Virus record (IMG/VR): IMGVR_UViG_3300009551_000124
Span: 1-21,823 of that record
Length of the DNA: 21,823 nucleotides
Source of the DNA: a virus
Reading direction: 5' to 3' (one strand)
The notes under the pieces are model-generated. The model did not search any database. It was not told where the DNA came from and saw only the letters and a list, made by a program, of their open reading frames with translations. A program made the position numbers and the translations under genes. This document shows, in pieces, positions 5,146 through 20,812 of this stretch (the first letter of the stretch is position 1; each line of letters starts with the position of its first letter).

Positions 5146-5401
5146 CTTCACAGATCAAGAGATTGATGTGATGCTCATCCGCGATACGCACGGTATACAC
5201 AAGATCAGGCATAGACGCACTGCCACTAAGTGGCGCAAGATGATTCAATATCGTGGACTCTGCCGATGTTGTGGTGCTGACCCGGTTATGATAAGTGTGG
5301 TCAAAGAGCGTGGAGCGCAGAAACGATTATGCCTTGCGTGCTATGAATCCGCTCTAGACCTTTACATGGAGGCCATTCCCGACTACACTCCCTCCCAATG
5401 A
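5138..5401 (+). CDS. Zinc-finger protein, 87 aa
   Basis: A TTG start at 5138 keeps the usual short overlap; the first in-frame ATG is 5171 and is also possible. The core is a basic stretch (HKIRHRRTATKWRKM), then C-R-C-C-G and, 22 residues on, C-L-A-C, a treble-clef or HNH-like zinc site without the HNH catalytic histidines. Probably nucleic-acid binding. The stop overlaps the next start (ATGA at 5398). Confidence 0.66.
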   Translation: MADFTDQEIDVMLIRDTHGIHKIRHRRTATKWRKMIQYRGLCRCCGADPVMISVVKERGAQKRLCLACYESALDLYMEAIPDYTPSQ

Positions 5402-5856
5402 GCGAACCGGTCAGAGAAGTCAACCATTACGATAAGGGCAAGCGTCTTTACGAGGCCATTGACGCACGTGGCGAAATCGACACTGTTGATGATATGCCTG
5501 TCAAGATGTTCACAGGCTCGATCCTCGAGGTTTACAAGAACGTACGCCCTAAGCTGTCCATGAGTGACTATGGACGGCTATTTAGAGGATTGAAGCAGAC
5601 TGGTTCGATTACACTGCTTCAAAAGGGAGCGCGCAACACCAACACGATCATGGCGCTCCATCACCCACCTACTCCCGAGCAGTGGCAAGCCTATGAACGT
5701 AGTCCCTTGACACGCAAGCTTGCGAGTGGTAATCTCAGTAGTGAGCTAGCCGATTTGAGAAAGGAGGTGGAGACATTACGGACACGGCTCAATCAAGTGG
5801 TACAACTGAACGGTCTGCAAGACGCAGGCGAGCAAGAAACACCGACACAAACGTAA
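5398..5856 (+). CDS. Putative DNA-binding protein with C-terminal coiled coil, 152 aa
   Basis: ATGA-coupled to the zinc-finger gene. Residues 1-90 are helical with a beta-hairpin (SITLLQKGARNTNTIMAL), a layout typical of a winged helix (SDYGRLFRGLKQTGSITLL); residues about 112-140 (LSSELADLRKEVETLRTRL) form a clear leucine-zipper coiled coil, so a dimer is likely. A repressor or replication accessory role is possible. A predicted promoter for the next gene (5707-5735) lies inside this coding sequence and carries a palindrome in its spacer, which a dimeric regulator such as this could bind. That link is inference. Confidence 0.68.
   Translation: MSEPVREVNHYDKGKRLYEAIDARGEIDTVDDMPVKMFTGSILEVYKNVRPKLSMSDYGRLFRGLKQTGSITLLQKGARNTNTIMALHHPPTPEQWQAYERSPLTRKLASGNLSSELADLRKEVETLRTRLNQVVQLNGLQDAGEQETPTQT
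5707..5735 (+). promoter_or_regulatory. Predicted sigma70-type promoter with palindromic spacer
   Basis: TTGACA (5707-5712), 17-base spacer, TAATCT (5730-5735). The -35 is a perfect consensus and the -10 fits TANNNT. The spacer begins with the perfect 12-base palindrome CGCAAGCTTGCG (5713-5724), a possible operator. It would drive the 96-aa gene at 5877 from about 5742. It lies inside a coding region. Confidence 0.55.
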
Positions 5857-5876: not shown

Positions 5877-6167
5877 ATGGCTGAGGCAACTGCAACTTCC
5901 GGCGCGATGACCGATGATGAGGTCGCCGCCCTGCTGAGCACTTCCAAGACGAAGGGTCAGTATTCCGATCTGCTCAAGGCATTCGTTGACTCCGGTGAGC
6001 GTGGTCATCGATACAGCAACACCGATGGTCAGTTTGCTGGTAAGGCGCTGCAGAGCATCAACACCGGCTTCAAGAACGCGGTCAAGGCTGCAGGACTTGA
6101 GGGTCAGGTGCGCGTGATCGGCTCCAAGGACGGCGGATTCGTCGCCCTGGTCAACACCGCCGCGTAG
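5877..6167 (+). CDS. Small, probably highly expressed protein, 96 aa
   Basis: An AAAGGAGAG ribosome site lies a few bases before ATG. The coding sequence uses GC-ending codons (GCC, CTG, GGC, ATC) more than its neighbours, has its own predicted promoter (5707) and is followed by a strong hairpin (6183-6218), so it looks like a stand-alone, abundantly made product. The protein is Ala/Gly-rich: a short disordered start, helices (DEVAALLSTS, YSDLLKAFVDSG, GKALQSINTGFKNAVKAAG) and a beta-hairpin end (VRVIGSKDGGFVALV). Slightly basic, no cysteines. Function unknown; a nucleoid-like or winged DNA-binding protein is one reading. Confidence 0.8.
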   Translation: MAEATATSGAMTDDEVAALLSTSKTKGQYSDLLKAFVDSGERGHRYSNTDGQFAGKALQSINTGFKNAVKAAGLEGQVRVIGSKDGGFVALVNTAA

Positions 6168-6182
6168 GGTAGCGCGACGGGC

Positions 6183-6218
6183 TGAGGGGGTGTCGGCCTT
6201 GCGGCTGGCACCCCCTCA
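6183..6218 (+). terminator. Strong hairpin after the 96-aa gene
   Basis: A 16-bp stem (TGAGGGGGTGTCGGCC paired with 6203-6218, two G-U pairs) with loop TTGC, 15 bases after the stop at 6167. Very stable and GC-rich. No T-run follows, so it would be an actinobacterial-type terminator or an mRNA-stabilising hairpin. Confidence 0.6.
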
Positions 6219-6228
6219 AGCTATCTTG

Positions 6229-6338
6229 GGGGAGAGGCAAGCCGTGTCCGCTGCTCTGTCTCCCCTCGCCGGTGGTACAGGGTGACCGTAACGTGAGTCC
6301 CCTAGACATACGTGAGTCGTATGCCCTGTACCACCGGC
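6229..6338 (+). other. Intergenic inverted-repeat cluster (possible structured RNA or protein-binding region)
   Basis: No gene is seen between 6168 and 6393. Besides the hairpin at 6183, it holds GGGGAGA (6229-6235) paired with TCTCCCC (6259-6265); a perfect 15-bp inverted repeat, GCCGGTGGTACAGGG (6268-6282) with 6324-6338; and inside that a 6-bp hairpin CATACG-TGAGT-CGTATG (6307-6323) stacked directly on the long arm. The 9-mer ACGTGAGTC occurs twice in the loop (6291-6299, 6310-6318). The long stem is followed by CTTTATTC, a weak T-rich tail. It may be a terminator, a structured 5' leader of the lysin-like gene, a small RNA or an origin-like site. Confidence 0.5.
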
Positions 6339-6393
6339 TTTATTCGTCCGTCGATGACATTGGCGGTAAGCGACAACATAGGAGGTACACCGT

Positions 6394-6936
6394 ATCCGGC
6401 GTGTACTAGCGATAGCAGCAGTGCTAACACTAGCGGCAACGAGTACGGCAAAAGCGCACACATACCCGCATCACATGTTGCGTAAGATCCATCATAACCG
6501 TGATGCCACGTGGCACTTTCAACGGTTGATGGGTGTACCACTAACCCCCTATCACAAATGGGCAGAAAATCGATGTGGCAACAAACAGTGTCGATATCAA
6601 GTATTGCTCATTTGGAGGCGTCATCATAGACATGCGCACCATCGATACAAGAGAGTCGGGTCTGCCCCGAGCTATTACGATGCGCGTTACGCAGGTCTAC
6701 GATGCATTCATGGTGGAGAAGGATCATGGGATGCATACAATCCTGCAGGCTACTACGGTGGCCTACAAATGGATTGGTCATTCATGCGCCATTGGGGCGC
6801 TGACATGCTAGCAAGGCATGGAGGTAAGGACGCACGATACTGGACTCCGCTTGAGCAACTGATAGTAGGGTATCGAGCGGTACAACATATAGGATACTCA
6901 CCCTGGCCGAATACACGTATTCCCTGTGGTGTGTAA
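6394..6936 (+). CDS. Secreted Rpf/transglycosylase-like cell-wall hydrolase, probable ATC start
   Basis: The C-terminal 75 residues match the actinobacterial Rpf/lysozyme-like fold: C104-I-H-G-G-E109-G-S-W, then YYGGLQMDWSFM, WTPLEQLIVGYRA and PWPNTRIPCGV. E109 is the likely catalytic acid, and C104 with the terminal Cys probably form the usual disulfide. Such domains cleave peptidoglycan glycan strands. No ATG/GTG/TTG gives a whole signal peptide: GTG 6421 leaves only MLTLAATSTAKA. The in-frame codon ATC 6394 has GGAGG (6381-6385) eight bases upstream and yields a textbook signal, RRVLAIAAVLTLAATSTAKA ending AKA|H. An in-frame TAG at 6379 excludes longer starts. The region between signal and domain is His/Arg-rich. 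It may aid lysis or lysis from without; an ATC start or a base error are both possible. Confidence 0.8.
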   Translation: MRRVLAIAAVLTLAATSTAKAHTYPHHMLRKIHHNRDATWHFQRLMGVPLTPYHKWAENRCGNKQCRYQVLLIWRRHHRHAHHRYKRVGSAPSYYDARYAGLRCIHGGEGSWDAYNPAGYYGGLQMDWSFMRHWGADMLARHGGKDARYWTPLEQLIVGYRAVQHIGYSPWPNTRIPCGV

Positions 6937-7972: not shown

Positions 7973-9406
7973 GTGGTTACGTACGTGAAACAGCCGTTTC
8001 AGCTAGAGGATCTAGACAAGCTGATTGCACGGCCACACGCTGCTAACTGGTCAGAGGTTGGCTGCATGAAAACATCGACGGCCTTGTGGGATATTGAGGG
8101 TACGATGACGTTGTGTCCGCCTGAGAAGCGTGGGCCACGTATTCTCATCATTACCACCAAGACCGGTAAAGACCCATACTTCCAGGCCACAGGCCCGATC
8201 TTGCCTGAATGGTCGATTGCCAATGCTAAGACTGACGGCACTGCTGATTGGATTCGTGGTGGCAACGACCCGATGGCTCCGCGTATCATCCTCGCGCATT
8301 ACCATTGCTTCACTAACAAGGCTAAGAGCCTTGAAGTGCTAGGTCTTATCAAATGGGACATGGTATTGCTAGATGAGGCACATAGGGTCAAGAACCGCAA
8401 TAGTCAGTGGTCGAAGAACATTCGCAAAATCTTCCGACATGTACCGTTTAAGCGTGTTATGACTGGCACCGGTTTCGTCAACACGCCCGACGAAGTATGG
8501 GCGCTACTGAATTTCCTTGATCCGAAGAAGTACACTGCATACTGGAAGTTTCGTGAGTATTTCTGCCTTGAGATTGAAGTCGCCGGTTTCCGCAAGGTTG
8601 TCGGTATTCGACCCAACCGCAAGGATGAGTTTCGTCAGCTACTTGCTGATATTGGTGTGCGACGTACGAAGAGTGAGGTATTCAAAGACCTGTTAGACCC
8701 GATTGAGACTAAGGTATTCGTTGACCTGTCTCCGACACAGCGACGTATGTACAACGAAGTCGTCAACTATCTCAAGACGCTTGATGCTGAGGGTACGCCG
8801 ATCACGTCACCCAACGTCATATCCGCGCTCACACGGCTGCGCCAGATCGCTGTAGCGACGCCTGTGGTCACGGGCACTGAGGTTGACCCTAAGACTGGCA
8901 AGAAAATCACTCACATCGATCTTACTGAGCCGTCATCCAAGCTGGATGCAGTGATGGAGATACTTGAAGGCATGTCGTGGGATGATGACCGTAAGGACAG
9001 TGTGGTCATATTCTCACAGTTTGCTAAAGCTGTAGACTTGATGCAGGCGCGGTTGGAGAAGGCCGGTATCAGTTACATTCGCATGTTGCCACGACATAAT
9101 GAGTTGAAGCGGGCTGCTATGGTAGAATCATTCCAGAACAAGGAAGCACAGGTATTCTTGTGCACCATCGATCTAGGTGGTGAGTCGATTACCCTAACTG
9201 CAGCGCAGACTCAGATTAACATTGATAAGTCGTGGTCGCCCGGTAAGAACATGCAGGCTGCTGGACGTATTCACAGGCCAGGTCAGAAAGGCCAGGCTCA
9301 GATCATTGACATTCATGCTAACAACACAGTAGACAACCGCGTACAGAAGAAGCTTGACAAGTCGGGATCATGGTTCAAGATGCTATTCGGAAAGGACGAT
9401 GAATGA
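7973..9406 (+). CDS. SNF2-type DEAH helicase / ATPase, 477 aa
   Basis: GTG 7973 has AGGAGG (7961-7966) six bases upstream. SNF2-family motifs run in order: motif I region WSEVGCMKTST (residues 26-36), motif II DEAH (134-137), motif III TGTG (164-167), and the C-terminal lobe with VFLCTIDLGGESITLTAA (motif V) and QAAGRIHRPGQ (428-438, motif VI). These enzymes move on dsDNA using ATP; in phages they are usually single-subunit helicase-like proteins of the replication/recombination module, which fits the neighbouring SWIM, RecB-like and Sak4 genes. Motif I is odd: Met replaces the Gly before Lys33. The length matches short phage SNF2 proteins, without extra chromatin domains. Confidence 0.9.
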   Translation: MVTYVKQPFQLEDLDKLIARPHAANWSEVGCMKTSTALWDIEGTMTLCPPEKRGPRILIITTKTGKDPYFQATGPILPEWSIANAKTDGTADWIRGGNDPMAPRIILAHYHCFTNKAKSLEVLGLIKWDMVLLDEAHRVKNRNSQWSKNIRKIFRHVPFKRVMTGTGFVNTPDEVWALLNFLDPKKYTAYWKFREYFCLEIEVAGFRKVVGIRPNRKDEFRQLLADIGVRRTKSEVFKDLLDPIETKVFVDLSPTQRRMYNEVVNYLKTLDAEGTPITSPNVISALTRLRQIAVATPVVTGTEVDPKTGKKITHIDLTEPSSKLDAVMEILEGMSWDDDRKDSVVIFSQFAKAVDLMQARLEKAGISYIRMLPRHNELKRAAMVESFQNKEAQVFLCTIDLGGESITLTAAQTQINIDKSWSPGKNMQAAGRIHRPGQKGQAQIIDIHANNTVDNRVQKKLDKSGSWFKMLFGKDDE

Positions 9407-15447: not shown

Positions 15448-15496
15448 AGGTCACTCTGCCGTCTGTTTCCGGGGGGTTTCAGCGGCAGAGTGACCT
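15448..15496 (+). promoter_or_regulatory. Perfect 14-bp hairpin between an orphan Shine-Dalgarno and the primase start
   Basis: AGGTCACTCTGCCG (15448-15461) pairs with CGGCAGAGTGACCT (15483-15496), loop of 21 bases; an inner CTG/CAG pairing is possible. AGGGAGG (15431-15437) lies 10 bases before the hairpin with no ATG near it, and the primase ATG is 12 bases after the hairpin. There is no T-run, so a plain terminator is less likely than a translational element. Confidence 0.6.
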
Positions 15497-15508: not shown

Positions 15509-17731
15509 ATGCAAAAATCATCGATCAAAGATATAAGGTATGAATTCTTCGATTTGGTATTCGGGGATGAAGATGGACTTATCTGCATCGCTACCTCACA
15601 CAAAATCCGCGGACGTGATTCGTTCAAGCGGTTTTTCTTTGAGTGGCCTAGAGAGTCAGCTAACATGTTGGCTTTCATCGAGCAGAAAGAGAAACATCAT
15701 AACGTGTGGTTTGCGGTCACTATGTTCGATAGGCGCGAGGCTAAGAAAGAGTATGCACGTCCTACACGTATTGTATGGGCAGACCTTGACTCTTGCGATC
15801 CTGAGACTGTAGATCCACCACCACCAATCATCATGGTATCGTCGCCCGGACGCTATCAAGCGTTGTGGACGCTGGACGGCTATGTTGATCCACAGATAGC
15901 AGAAGATTACTCACGTCGCATTGCATACAAGTACCACGACAATGGTGCAGACGTATCAGGTTGGGATATCGGTCAGCTACTTCGTGTACCGTTCACACGT
16001 AATTTCAAGGCTGAGTATCAAGAGGCCGGTGACGTATACCCAACTGTAGAATTGACACGTATCCTCACCGGCATGGAAGCACCGGTCGAGATATTTGAGG
16101 GGGTCGAGAAGCCAACCGACGTGCCCGAGGCGGTCAAATTTGATGTTGACATGCCTGCTGATGATATCCTGCCGGACGTGCCTGAGACTATTCGCAAGTA
16201 CATAGGGTTGATGGAAGATGCTCCTGCATTCATGTCACGTATGGAGGATGATCCAGATGATGAGGCCGATTGGTCTAGTCTCATGTGGAACCTCATCAAT
16301 ATGTGCTTTGAATGCGGAATGGATGAGCTAGAGACATTCGCTTGTTGTCGTGTATCAAAGGTCAACAAGTACCGTCGTGATAACCGGCCTGAGCGCCACC
16401 TGTGGTTGGAAGTGCTTAAGGTCAAACAGCGGTTTCAGCGCATTGCAGAGTATCAGCATGAAGCAGTATCATTCACAATGCCTGGTATCTATGATGAGGC
16501 AGAAGATGATAACTTCACATACATCGACATGTATCGTGAATGGGGAATGAAGCGGACTGACGCGCCACCACAGTACCACGATCTGTTTGCATTTATGTTG
16601 CTGTCAGCGATCCTCTCTGCTAACTTGAAGCTTGAAACTACATATGGTACAGTCCGTCCCAACCTGTGGGGGATGGTACTTGGCGAGTCCACGTTGGCAC
16701 GGAAGACAACATCGATGCGTATGTGTGAAGAGGTTATTGCCAACATCGACGTTGATATCTTTGCTGCCTCAGAGGGTTCGGTAGAAGGTATTATCAGTTT
16801 TCTTGCCAATCGTCCACACCAAGTCAGTTTGATGACACGTGATGAGCTAGCAGGGTACTTCAATCAGATTTCACGTAAGGATTATTTGCAGGGAACCAAA
16901 GAGCTATTCGCACAATTGTATGACGTACCACGTATTTTTCGACGGACACTTAAGAAGCAAACATATACAGTGGAAGAACCGATCTTCATGGTAATGGGCG
17001 CTGGCATTCGTGACGAGGTATATCATTCACTCGATGAGTCAGCTATCACAAGTGGATTTCTGCCCAGGTTCTTGATTGTCTGTGGCGACACAAAACTTGA
17101 GGCTGTAAAGCCATTAGGCCCGCCGCTTCAAGAAATCCAAGATGGCAGCAATCCTGTAATTGCACACGCACAACATCTATACAATACATATCATCGTAAC
17201 GGTCAGGTCAAATTGACTGGTGGTGGTACTGAGGTAACGGTTGATAGGCCGATAGTGGTGGACGTGCAACTGACCCCGGAAGCATGGACAGAGTTTTCAC
17301 GAATTGATGCCATTATGCGTGAGTCGTCCTACCATAGTGCATTGAGTCACGTGATGTTGCCGACTATGCAACGGCTCTCCATGAGCCTGTTAAAGATGGC
17401 TATGCTGATTGCTGCCTCTCGCAGTGAGCCGGACGAAGATGTTATCTCTGCTGAAAAGCGTGATATCGTGTCGGCTGCTAAGTACGTGCAGGATTGGGGA
17501 CAGTATTCTATCGAGGCATGTATGAATGTCGGCAAGGGTTTGAATGAGCGATCATTGTCGAAAGCACATCGTTATATCAAACGACATTCAGGTGTATCAC
17601 GTGGTCAGTTTATGCGCGACAATCATTTGATGAAGCGGGAGGCAGATGACTACATTCAGACATTGATTGAGCGTGGGCACATCAGAATTGATAGGATTGG
17701 TAAAGCAACCCACTACATAGCGATAGATTAA
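15509..17731 (+). CDS. PrimPol-helicase: RepB-like primase fused to DUF3987-like ATPase, 740 aa
   Basis: The N-terminal domain (1-170) is an AEP-type primase: metal-binding A-D-L-D (91-94), SSPGRYQALW (111-120) and W-D-I-G-Q-L-L-R-V-P-F-T-R-N (152-165), as in RepB-like plasmid and phage primases. The C-terminal domain (about 330-600) is DUF3987-like: P-loop variant G-E-S-T-L-A-R-K-T (392-400) and Walker B-like VSLMTRDELAGYF (439-451), followed by a helical tail with an HTH-like end (SRGQFMRDNHLMKREADDY). Together they should prime and unwind DNA at the phage fork. ATG 15509 has only a weak GAGAG just upstream; a strong AGGGAGG lies 71 bases away across a hairpin. Confidence 0.87.
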   Translation: MQKSSIKDIRYEFFDLVFGDEDGLICIATSHKIRGRDSFKRFFFEWPRESANMLAFIEQKEKHHNVWFAVTMFDRREAKKEYARPTRIVWADLDSCDPETVDPPPPIIMVSSPGRYQALWTLDGYVDPQIAEDYSRRIAYKYHDNGADVSGWDIGQLLRVPFTRNFKAEYQEAGDVYPTVELTRILTGMEAPVEIFEGVEKPTDVPEAVKFDVDMPADDILPDVPETIRKYIGLMEDAPAFMSRMEDDPDDEADWSSLMWNLINMCFECGMDELETFACCRVSKVNKYRRDNRPERHLWLEVLKVKQRFQRIAEYQHEAVSFTMPGIYDEAEDDNFTYIDMYREWGMKRTDAPPQYHDLFAFMLLSAILSANLKLETTYGTVRPNLWGMVLGESTLARKTTSMRMCEEVIANIDVDIFAASEGSVEGIISFLANRPHQVSLMTRDELAGYFNQISRKDYLQGTKELFAQLYDVPRIFRRTLKKQTYTVEEPIFMVMGAGIRDEVYHSLDESAITSGFLPRFLIVCGDTKLEAVKPLGPPLQEIQDGSNPVIAHAQHLYNTYHRNGQVKLTGGGTEVTVDRPIVVDVQLTPEAWTEFSRIDAIMRESSYHSALSHVMLPTMQRLSMSLLKMAMLIAASRSEPDEDVISAEKRDIVSAAKYVQDWGQYSIEACMNVGKGLNERSLSKAHRYIKRHSGVSRGQFMRDNHLMKREADDYIQTLIERGHIRIDRIGKATHYIAID

Positions 17732-18153: not shown

Positions 18154-18410
18154 GCAGCCCGCCCCTCCACGAAGCCGCCGCACGTGCTATCGCTCTACAC
18201 CTAGTCTCAGACACTGAGCGTTGGCGAGAGTACAAAGGCCCAGCGCGTGACACCATCGCTGCGGTCGAGCCGCTGATTCGTGCCGATGAGCGGGAGCGCG
18301 TCACTACCACCATCAAGGCGATCCAGTCCTATGACCCCGATACAGTGGTCGTGCGGCCAGCCGACGACTTCAAGCGTGACGTGCTGGCTGCGATTGGCGC
18401 TATTCGATGA
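18150..18410 (+). CDS. GC-rich small protein, 86 aa
   Basis: ATGA overlaps on both sides. The base composition and codon use (GCC, CCG, GTG, CGG) are clearly richer in GC than the flanking genes. The protein is helical and Ala/Arg-rich (EAAARAIALHLVSD, AAVEPLIRADERERVTTTI), a type common in Streptomyces and other actinobacterial phage or chromosome proteins with no known role. Probably a recent gain from a high-GC genome. No active-site motif. Confidence 0.72.
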   Translation: MSSPPLHEAAARAIALHLVSDTERWREYKGPARDTIAAVEPLIRADERERVTTTIKAIQSYDPDTVVVRPADDFKRDVLAAIGAIR

Positions 18411-20812
18411 CTGAGGCAAAAATGCACCTTGAGGCGATTCAGGCTGATACTACAGCTAAAGCCCCACATGCAAGGTGTTGGGAATGCCCGCTGTTCGATC
18501 AACCGTGTGCTCCGACCACAGGCCCGGAGGGTGCGTCTGTGGTGATTGTAGGTCGGTCGCCTGGATTCCATGAGGCGAACGCTGGCAAGCCGATGAGTGG
18601 CCCTATCGGTAAGATAGTCAATCATCTACTTGACATGAATGGAGTTGATAAGGCCAGTGTCAAGCGAACCAATACCGTCCTTTGTTACAGTGATAAGCCG
18701 AGCAGCGCAGCCCTTGCTGCATGTAGACCTAGACTTGACGATGAAGTTAGGTCAGCGCAAACGATCATTGCATGTGGAGTGGAAGCTTCACAAACATTCA
18801 CCGGAGGCAATGTCAATGCAAAGCGCGGACACGATCACAAGTACAATGACGCAAGAGTTATTGTTACTAACAATCCAGCAGCGACTTTACGAGATGACGG
18901 TACATATCCAAACCTCGTAAGTGACTTTAAACGTGCACTAAACCCAATTGAACCTCGACCATTCCCGGAAGTAAGGTGGACGGATGATCCTGACGAAGCC
19001 ATCGACTGGATACAAAAACTTCAATTGGTGGATACGTTCAGCGTCGATATCGAATCCACAGGACTTGATTTCGATTCTGAGTTGGTGTCTATCGGTATCG
19101 GACGCGATACGCGAGCAGTTGTTATCGGAAGATACGCACTTGGTGAACATCACGTGCGACAGGCTCTCGGACGGTTCCTTTCAGATCCTCATAAGACAGT
19201 CATCTACCACAATGGAAAATTCGACGTAAAGATCCTACGTCAGAATGGTATAGATGCACGTGTCGATGAGGATACACTGCTACAGTCCTACATATTGGAT
19301 GAACGTCCAGGGTCACACTCCCTAGACTATCTTACTGCCGATAGACTTGGCTGGCCTGACTACACTCCACAAGTGGTCAAGGAAGGTAAGCGCAAGCAGC
19401 ATTGGATCGGACGTGAGGATGAGCTACAGGCATTGTATGGACTTACGTGGGATGAGTATAAGGTGCTGCTGTATGAGTATAACGGTCAGGACACTTCCGG
19501 TACACACATGTTGTATCTGCTGTTCACTCCTGAAACCGATCAAGGCAACATACGTGATCCGTACTACAAGTTACTCATCCCCGCTTCTAACGTAATTGCA
19601 GATATTGAACGTAGGGGCATCGCATTTGACGTTGACCTAGCACAGTGGTCACTTGACCATGAGGTTCTGCCAGAGTTAGAGCATTTGAAGGCCGAAGCTG
19701 CTAGACTGATCGGGAGAGAAATCAATCTCAACTCCCCACAGCAAGTCAGCGCGTATCTCTACGATGAGCTACAACTGCAACATACACTCGATAGGCGTGG
19801 TAAAGAGCGATCCGTTGACGCTGCTATCAGGAATGAGATACTAGATGGACGGGCTAAGTTTGCGAACATACTGCCTGAACAGATGGGCCTATTCGACAAC
19901 GGTGGGGTTGCATTCGTATCAACGCTCCATCGTTTCAAACGCCTCGACAAGATTCGATCTACGTATGTCGAAACGCTCATCAAGCAGTGTGCAAAGGATG
20001 GCCGTATACACGCTGAATTCAATCCTGCAGGAACAGAGACAGGTAGGCTCAGTGGCAGTCGTCCTAACCTGCAGAATCAGCCACGACCTAAGCCGGGTGA
20101 AAAGCTACCTAATGTACGTAACTTCTTTATCGCATCAGAAGGGCACGTACTAATACAGGCAGACTACTCACAGGCTGAGCTACGTGTGGCAGCAGTGTTG
20201 AGTGGTGACAAAAATCTACAGGATATCTACTACAATGACCTTGACTTGCATACTGAGGTTGCAACAGACTTCTACGGTAAAGGTTTCAACAAAGAACATC
20301 GTGTACGAGCTAAGACAGTCAACTTCGGCATCCTGTATGGACAAGAAGAATTCTCACTGTCACAACATCTTCACATCACAGTCAATGAAGCTAGGAGACT
20401 TATCAATGCATGGTGGCATCGTTTTCCAGAGGTACGTACATGGGTAAAGCAGCAGCATCGGAACATCTTGAAAGACGGTTATCTAACTACAGCGACAGGA
20501 CGAAGAAGGCGCTTTCATCTGATAACGGAAGAGAACAAGCATCACACGCTGAAAGAGGGGGTCAACTGCCTGATTCAATCACCCGCAAGCGACTTGTGTT
20601 TGTACAGCCTGATTCGTCTAAGTGATGTGCCACTATTCGATATCCTACTCACGGTGCACGACTCAATCTTGTTTGAGACAAAGCCGGAGAACGTCGAAGC
20701 ATCAATGTCCATCATCAAGAAGACGATGGAAGGCGCTGCCAACGAGCTTATCGGGTGGGACTTCCCATTCAAGGTTGACATGGCTACAGGCGAAAGGTGG
20801 GGCGAGCTATGA
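18407..20812 (+). CDS. DNA polymerase I with N-terminal UDG-like Fe-S domain, 801 aa
   Basis: Three parts. Residues 20-180: uracil-DNA-glycosylase-like (family 4) fold with 4Fe-4S cysteines C24-x2-C27, C93 and C106, but GRSPG (49-53) where GEAPG is usual and NNPAATLR where HPS/HPAALLR is usual. Residues 208-400: DnaQ/RNase D-like 3'-5' exonuclease, D214-I-E216, Y-H-N-G-K-F-D273. Residues about 400-801: family A polymerase, motif A D586-Y-S-Q-A-E-L-R, motif B R-A-K636-T-V-N-F640-G-I-L-Y-G, motif C V-H751-D752-S753. It is the replicative polymerase of this phage. Phe640 predicts discrimination against dideoxynucleotides. Motif C has Ser where Glu is common. UDG-like extensions are known on phage polymerases such as that of SPO1. 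Confidence 0.94.
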   Translation: MTEAKMHLEAIQADTTAKAPHARCWECPLFDQPCAPTTGPEGASVVIVGRSPGFHEANAGKPMSGPIGKIVNHLLDMNGVDKASVKRTNTVLCYSDKPSSAALAACRPRLDDEVRSAQTIIACGVEASQTFTGGNVNAKRGHDHKYNDARVIVTNNPAATLRDDGTYPNLVSDFKRALNPIEPRPFPEVRWTDDPDEAIDWIQKLQLVDTFSVDIESTGLDFDSELVSIGIGRDTRAVVIGRYALGEHHVRQALGRFLSDPHKTVIYHNGKFDVKILRQNGIDARVDEDTLLQSYILDERPGSHSLDYLTADRLGWPDYTPQVVKEGKRKQHWIGREDELQALYGLTWDEYKVLLYEYNGQDTSGTHMLYLLFTPETDQGNIRDPYYKLLIPASNVIADIERRGIAFDVDLAQWSLDHEVLPELEHLKAEAARLIGREINLNSPQQVSAYLYDELQLQHTLDRRGKERSVDAAIRNEILDGRAKFANILPEQMGLFDNGGVAFVSTLHRFKRLDKIRSTYVETLIKQCAKDGRIHAEFNPAGTETGRLSGSRPNLQNQPRPKPGEKLPNVRNFFIASEGHVLIQADYSQAELRVAAVLSGDKNLQDIYYNDLDLHTEVATDFYGKGFNKEHRVRAKTVNFGILYGQEEFSLSQHLHITVNEARRLINAWWHRFPEVRTWVKQQHRNILKDGYLTTATGRRRRFHLITEENKHHTLKEGVNCLIQSPASDLCLYSLIRLSDVPLFDILLTVHDSILFETKPENVEASMSIIKKTMEGAANELIGWDFPFKVDMATGERWGEL

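Follow-up and report, generated by a model that had tools for sequence, protein, structure and literature searches.

The question raised by this locus is from which codon a phage gene for a predicted secreted hydrolase is translated. The window, i.e. the whole stretch of DNA analysed here (21,823 nucleotides), is a linear IMG/VR virus record of 21.8 kb. The hydrolase gene occupies positions 6394-6936 (180 codons) and, like its leader and the neighbouring genes discussed below, lies on the + strand. An earlier note, made from the sequence alone, had placed its start at the ATC codon 6394-6396. On re-reading of the sequence, the GGAGG at 6381-6385, the eight-base spacing and the in-frame ATC were all found to be exact, the GGAGG being part of a 7-nt Shine-Dalgarno sequence (SD), AGGAGGT, at 6380-6386. 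The TAG at 6379-6381 is indeed in frame, five codons 5' of the ATC, and excludes longer starts. Read from the ATC, the protein has a complete signal peptide (coding region 6394-6456), IRRVLAIAAVLTLAATSTAKA, followed after the cleavage site by H, with two arginines in its n-region, a hydrophobic core identified from hydropathy and an AKA cleavage site. The first canonical codon, GTG 6421-6423, is codon 10 of 180; it has no SD, and starting there would remove the basic n-region and about half of the hydrophobic core, as the note had stated. A second copy of the window's own start site was not found in IMG/VR, and the window codon is single-copy evidence backed by relatives.

The product of the gene is predicted to be a secreted Rpf-like peptidoglycan hydrolase. 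The Rpf-like assignment, which had also been proposed earlier, was borne out by a profile comparison, by Pfam matches of aligned relatives and by the fold of the catalytic domain. The hydrolase family profile matches RpfB at 1e-8, and PF06737 was matched by all aligned relatives (12/12, best 9.6e-9). The window domain itself reached 18.3 bits against PF06737, under the Pfam gathering score of 27 bits, which is passed by two relatives at the same locus, L409 (71 bits) and L457 (36 bits). The AF2 model of the Rpf-type catalytic domain (residues 96-180, positions 6679-6933) had a pLDDT of 97.2 and matched mycobacterial RpfB with a TM of 0.80, an rmsd of 1.7-1.8 and a probability of 1.00, whereas the AF2 model of the full-length protein gave no usable fold match. 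Glu109 (6718-6720) is invariant in alignments of 30 and 45 homologues. The window protein shares with Rpfs (PF06737, RpfB) the fold of the catalytic domain, the YYGGLQ motif and the invariant glutamate, but it differs from them in that it is short, is encoded by a phage, has an N-terminal region of its own, scores below the Pfam cut-off and has an unusual start codon. The window DNA had no match among isolate phages, and the hydrolase protein had none in isolate-phage or plasmid collections. Homologues are present in 68 of the 299 genomes of the class Thermoleophilia that were searched, a hint, short of proof, at the host group.

The earlier note had proposed comparing the start codon in related phages. 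As syntenic markers we used a conserved neighbour of 152 aa (5398-5856), a second conserved neighbour of 96 aa with an ATG start (5877-6167) and a SNF2-type helicase (7973-9406), the latter two also serving as paired controls. When the helicase was used as the query, many soil contigs, several of them of about 57-59 kb, turned out to carry the hydrolase flanked by the 5877-like gene and the SNF2 gene. Two contigs found in this way, L015 and L016, carry the same block and are the closest in shared neighbouring genes. Their aligned start codons are ATT and ATA, respectively; in both, an in-frame stop lies 5-6 codons 5' of the start, and L015 has a TTG at codon 3. Nearly all close relatives have ATT, ATA, ATC, CTG or ACG at the equivalent site, and not ATG. 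Among the 26 distinct hydrolases at the locus, 18 have a non-canonical start (ATC 6, ATT 5, ATA 1, CTG 5, ACG 1); the exact start is ambiguous in the CTG group because a GTC or ATC codon stands immediately 5' of the CTG. The remaining eight begin with TTG (4), ATG (3) or GTG (1), so the weak codon is not essential. None of the neighbouring genes with an identifiable SD has a non-canonical start (0/15 for the 5877-like gene and 0/18 for the SNF2 helicase, 0/33 in total), as against 17/25 hydrolases (Fisher test, p = 5e-9). The mean SD length is 6.1 nt, with short SDs of 4 nt in L015, L016 and L412.

The hydrolases at this position, 5' of the SNF2 helicase, belong to differing sub-types (L409, L449, L457, L461, L465, L419 and L430), a distribution that suggests exchange of domains or genes. 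A non-canonical start is kept with PF06737 (L409, L457), with SLT_3-like domains (L461, L465) and with the CESG...GLFQ type (L449). A scan for further secreted proteins starting at AUH or CTG found five. Each of them lies at one of these loci and is a wall hydrolase or a lysozyme-like protein of another sub-type. As the trait is kept when the catalytic domain differs, it follows position and function. The comparison indicates that the non-canonical start is a trait of this lineage of uncultured soil phages, not of one gene, and that it is restricted to the hydrolase gene relative to its neighbours. The window gene combines a full product that is unreachable from a canonical in-frame start, a strong and well-spaced SD (AGGAGGT, 8 nt) and a non-canonical codon conserved in relatives.

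We also surveyed about 95 distinct viral homologues of the wider family. Starts were classed by an automatic rule, which required an SD of at least 5 nt for a non-canonical call, and some were assigned by hand; codon-agnostic SD scans across the entire first halves of the open reading frames were too noisy and were replaced by other scans. A canonical start with an SD was found in 64 viral homologues (ATG 19, GTG 29, TTG 16) and a non-canonical start in 16 by the automatic rule (ATC 10, ATT 4, CTG 1, ACG 1), and five further non-canonical starts were assigned by hand (L015, L016, L073, L079 and L198). Of the 19 viral homologues that lack a canonical start with an SD, 14 have an isoleucine (AUH) codon at the SD-defined position, against a regional isoleucine background of 3.4% (P ~1e-10 or less). 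All bacterial homologues scored were canonical (18/18). Only 2 of 125 other genes of the same contigs were scored as non-canonical, and both proved false on inspection. The canonical members of the family avoid ATG too (19/64, 30%, versus 152/228, 67%, in other genes; p = 1.5e-7), and the general tendency is therefore towards weak initiation. On a tree of 82 columns, the start trait requires 15 changes compared with a shuffled mean of 19.5; at least three are forced by well-supported branches, and the trait is thus recurrent. In this tree the window gene falls in a clade of five whose members all have AUH starts, with three different bases at the third position.

One objection is that the true start is GTG 6421, or the equivalent internal canonical codon in relatives, and that the match at the ATC is coincidental. 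GTG is a normal start codon, but besides the missing SD and the halved signal peptide noted above, several relatives lack any canonical codon that could serve. The L419 open reading frame contains zero ATG, GTG or TTG in its 197 codons, which makes a downstream canonical start impossible, and the CTG is kept in L423/L424 (two assemblies), which share 67% DNA identity with L419. In L457 the first canonical codon is number 161 of 170, and L087, L052 and L084 have none 5' of the catalytic motif; a product started downstream in these four would be catalytically dead or unsecreted. Moreover, in L011, L073 and L079 of the wider family, codons 2-32, between the ATC/CTG and the first usable canonical codon, show a pN/pS of 0.04-0.12, which signifies strong purifying selection on these codons. 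A 4-nt length difference immediately 5' of the start breaks the frame between L011 and L073/L079, and in neither L073 nor L079 does a canonical codon lie further upstream in the open reading frame. As far as sequence allows a judgement, initiation at 6421 is very improbable. A canonical start in another frame, combined with programmed frameshifting or with coupling from a short upstream open reading frame, is a second alternative. It finds some support in out-of-frame ATG codons near the SD of L016 and L087 and in the structured leaders, but the relatives have no out-of-frame start or slippery site in common, the SD spacing suits the AUH or CTG codon, and the window lacks an ATG, whatever the frame, from the SD to the signal peptide. 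We regard this route, too, as a most improbable one.

The codons might instead be artefacts of sequencing or assembly, or the genes might be decaying; the contigs are metagenomic and the window is without a replicate. Nevertheless, the start codon is identical across independent assemblies (L027 and L028, L065 and L067, three assemblies of L084 and several of L430), and error is excluded for several members because such assemblies share it. The third base also varies among relatives, and invariant catalytic residues together with purifying selection speak against decay, so that this explanation can hardly be true. The strongest competitor is drift, in which low expression is enough, mutations of the ATG are tolerated and weakness itself is not selected. 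The wide variation of the codon among relatives and the presence of some ATG or GTG members would fit such a history. However, the codons seen are all known to support some initiation (AUH, CTG, ACG, TTG, GTG), while AAG and AGG were not seen; in the subgroup where ATC and CTG interchange, no ATG relative was found; the trait persists whichever domain type is present; and the SDs remain fairly strong (mean as above). Drift is therefore considered unlikely, although less so than the other alternatives.

With regard to the intergenic leader of the window (6168-6393), it folds far better than shuffled sequences (z -6.8). It contains a hairpin with perfect 15-nt arms at 6268-6338 and a second one at 6183-6218 with 16-nt arms at 88%, which are among the few long hairpins in the window. 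Relatives have strong hairpins at the same place, unrelated in sequence, with z values of -2.3 to -5.6 (leaders compared: L409, L411, L415, L417, L419, L421, L423, L430, L447, L457, L461 and L465). In many relatives the motif TGTAAKCTA lies directly 5' of the SD, and it is almost confined to the hydrolase gene. Termination, promoter activity or regulation are possible roles of these elements. No Rfam match was found. Predicted mRNA folding near the start did not distinguish non-AUG from canonical members by the accessibility of the SD.

The reading that we prefer is that the window hydrolase is translated from AUC 6394 and that selection in the lineage holds the start weak and the SD fairly strong, keeping the enzyme scarce; on the comparative evidence, this is probably correct. 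Initiation at near-cognate codons is the part that we infer strongly. The 7-nt SD would place fMet-tRNA on the near-cognate AUC, where initiation, discouraged by IF3, would reach only a small part of the rate at AUG. Selection in the phage lineage would favour a weak start (AUH, CUG, ACG or else often UUG) together with a fairly strong SD. The secreted wall-cutting enzyme would thus be made in small amounts only, and premature lysis would be averted; the low protein output, the sensitivity to IF3 and the protection from premature lysis are presumed. As the gene sits among DNA-metabolism genes, its product could lyse the cell early. The suggestion in the earlier note that the codon limits a potentially lytic enzyme fits the lineage pattern, and a regulatory purpose is plausible.

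In bacteria, AUH starts other than AUG have been described in a few host genes. In infC, which encodes IF3, AUU, AUC or AUA follows a strong SD, and initiation is low and IF3-sensitive (PMC5472188, PMC13009471). The window gene resembles infC in having an AUH codon behind a strong SD, but infC is an autoregulated host housekeeping gene, whereas the window gene encodes a phage secreted hydrolase with no known feedback partner. In several genomes of the class Thermoleophilia (L370, L378, L380, L383 and L388), infC itself has a GGAGGTG with TTG or GTC after it at unusual distances, a start reading that is not confident. The ccpN (AUA) and cvfC1 (AUU) genes of Staphylococcus aureus have a conserved non-canonical start and an extended SD, with a reporter output of about 10% of that of AUG (PMC13009471). 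Each of these is one conserved bacterial gene, whereas in the phage lineage the codon varies among AUH, CTG and ACG and across hydrolase types. Streptomyces sigR starts with GTC and is repressed by IF3 (PMC5472188). It can be likened to the phage hydrolase as an actinobacterial case in which a non-canonical start limits a protein harmful in excess, although sigR encodes a regulator with a cotranscribed partner and its codon is GTC. The combination of a near-cognate codon and a strong SD is a design in common with infC, ccpN, cvfC1 and sigR, in which output is low and IF3 acts as a repressor in the cases examined for it. The Escherichia coli gene ymfQ is a prophage gene; unlike the phage hydrolase, it does not encode a wall hydrolase, and we know of no lineage-wide start pattern for it. 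It is one of three E. coli genes listed with ATT starts (PMC6200909). Our searches of the open-access literature turned up no phage gene for lysis or for a hydrolase that is described as starting at AUH.

A more far-reaching idea, which we put forward tentatively and consider rather doubtful, is that the weak start acts together with the hairpin-rich leader as a dedicated gate on translation, which phage relatives have retained even where the catalytic domain was exchanged. Such a gate would sense IF3 or the ribosome state of slow-growing soil hosts and would release the Rpf-like enzyme at trace levels or in particular host states only, e.g. in waking or remodelling host cells; the enzyme would then not be the lysis endolysin.

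In this phage lineage, AUH starts are the norm for one gene and track its function across changes of the catalytic domain, which provides a clean natural experiment on selection for weak initiation. Gene callers limited to ATG, GTG and TTG would assign a wrong start to the window gene and would miss the L419 gene entirely.

Three other features of the window were observed. An open-ended reading frame at 1-954 has weak similarity to phage anti-restriction and metalloprotease families (phrog_7245 and phrog_87). A perfect 14-nt inverted repeat at 15448-15496 lies just 5' of a primase-like gene at 15509. Finally, the DNA polymerase A at 18407-20812 carries an N-terminal domain of the uracil-DNA-glycosylase superfamily in one chain.
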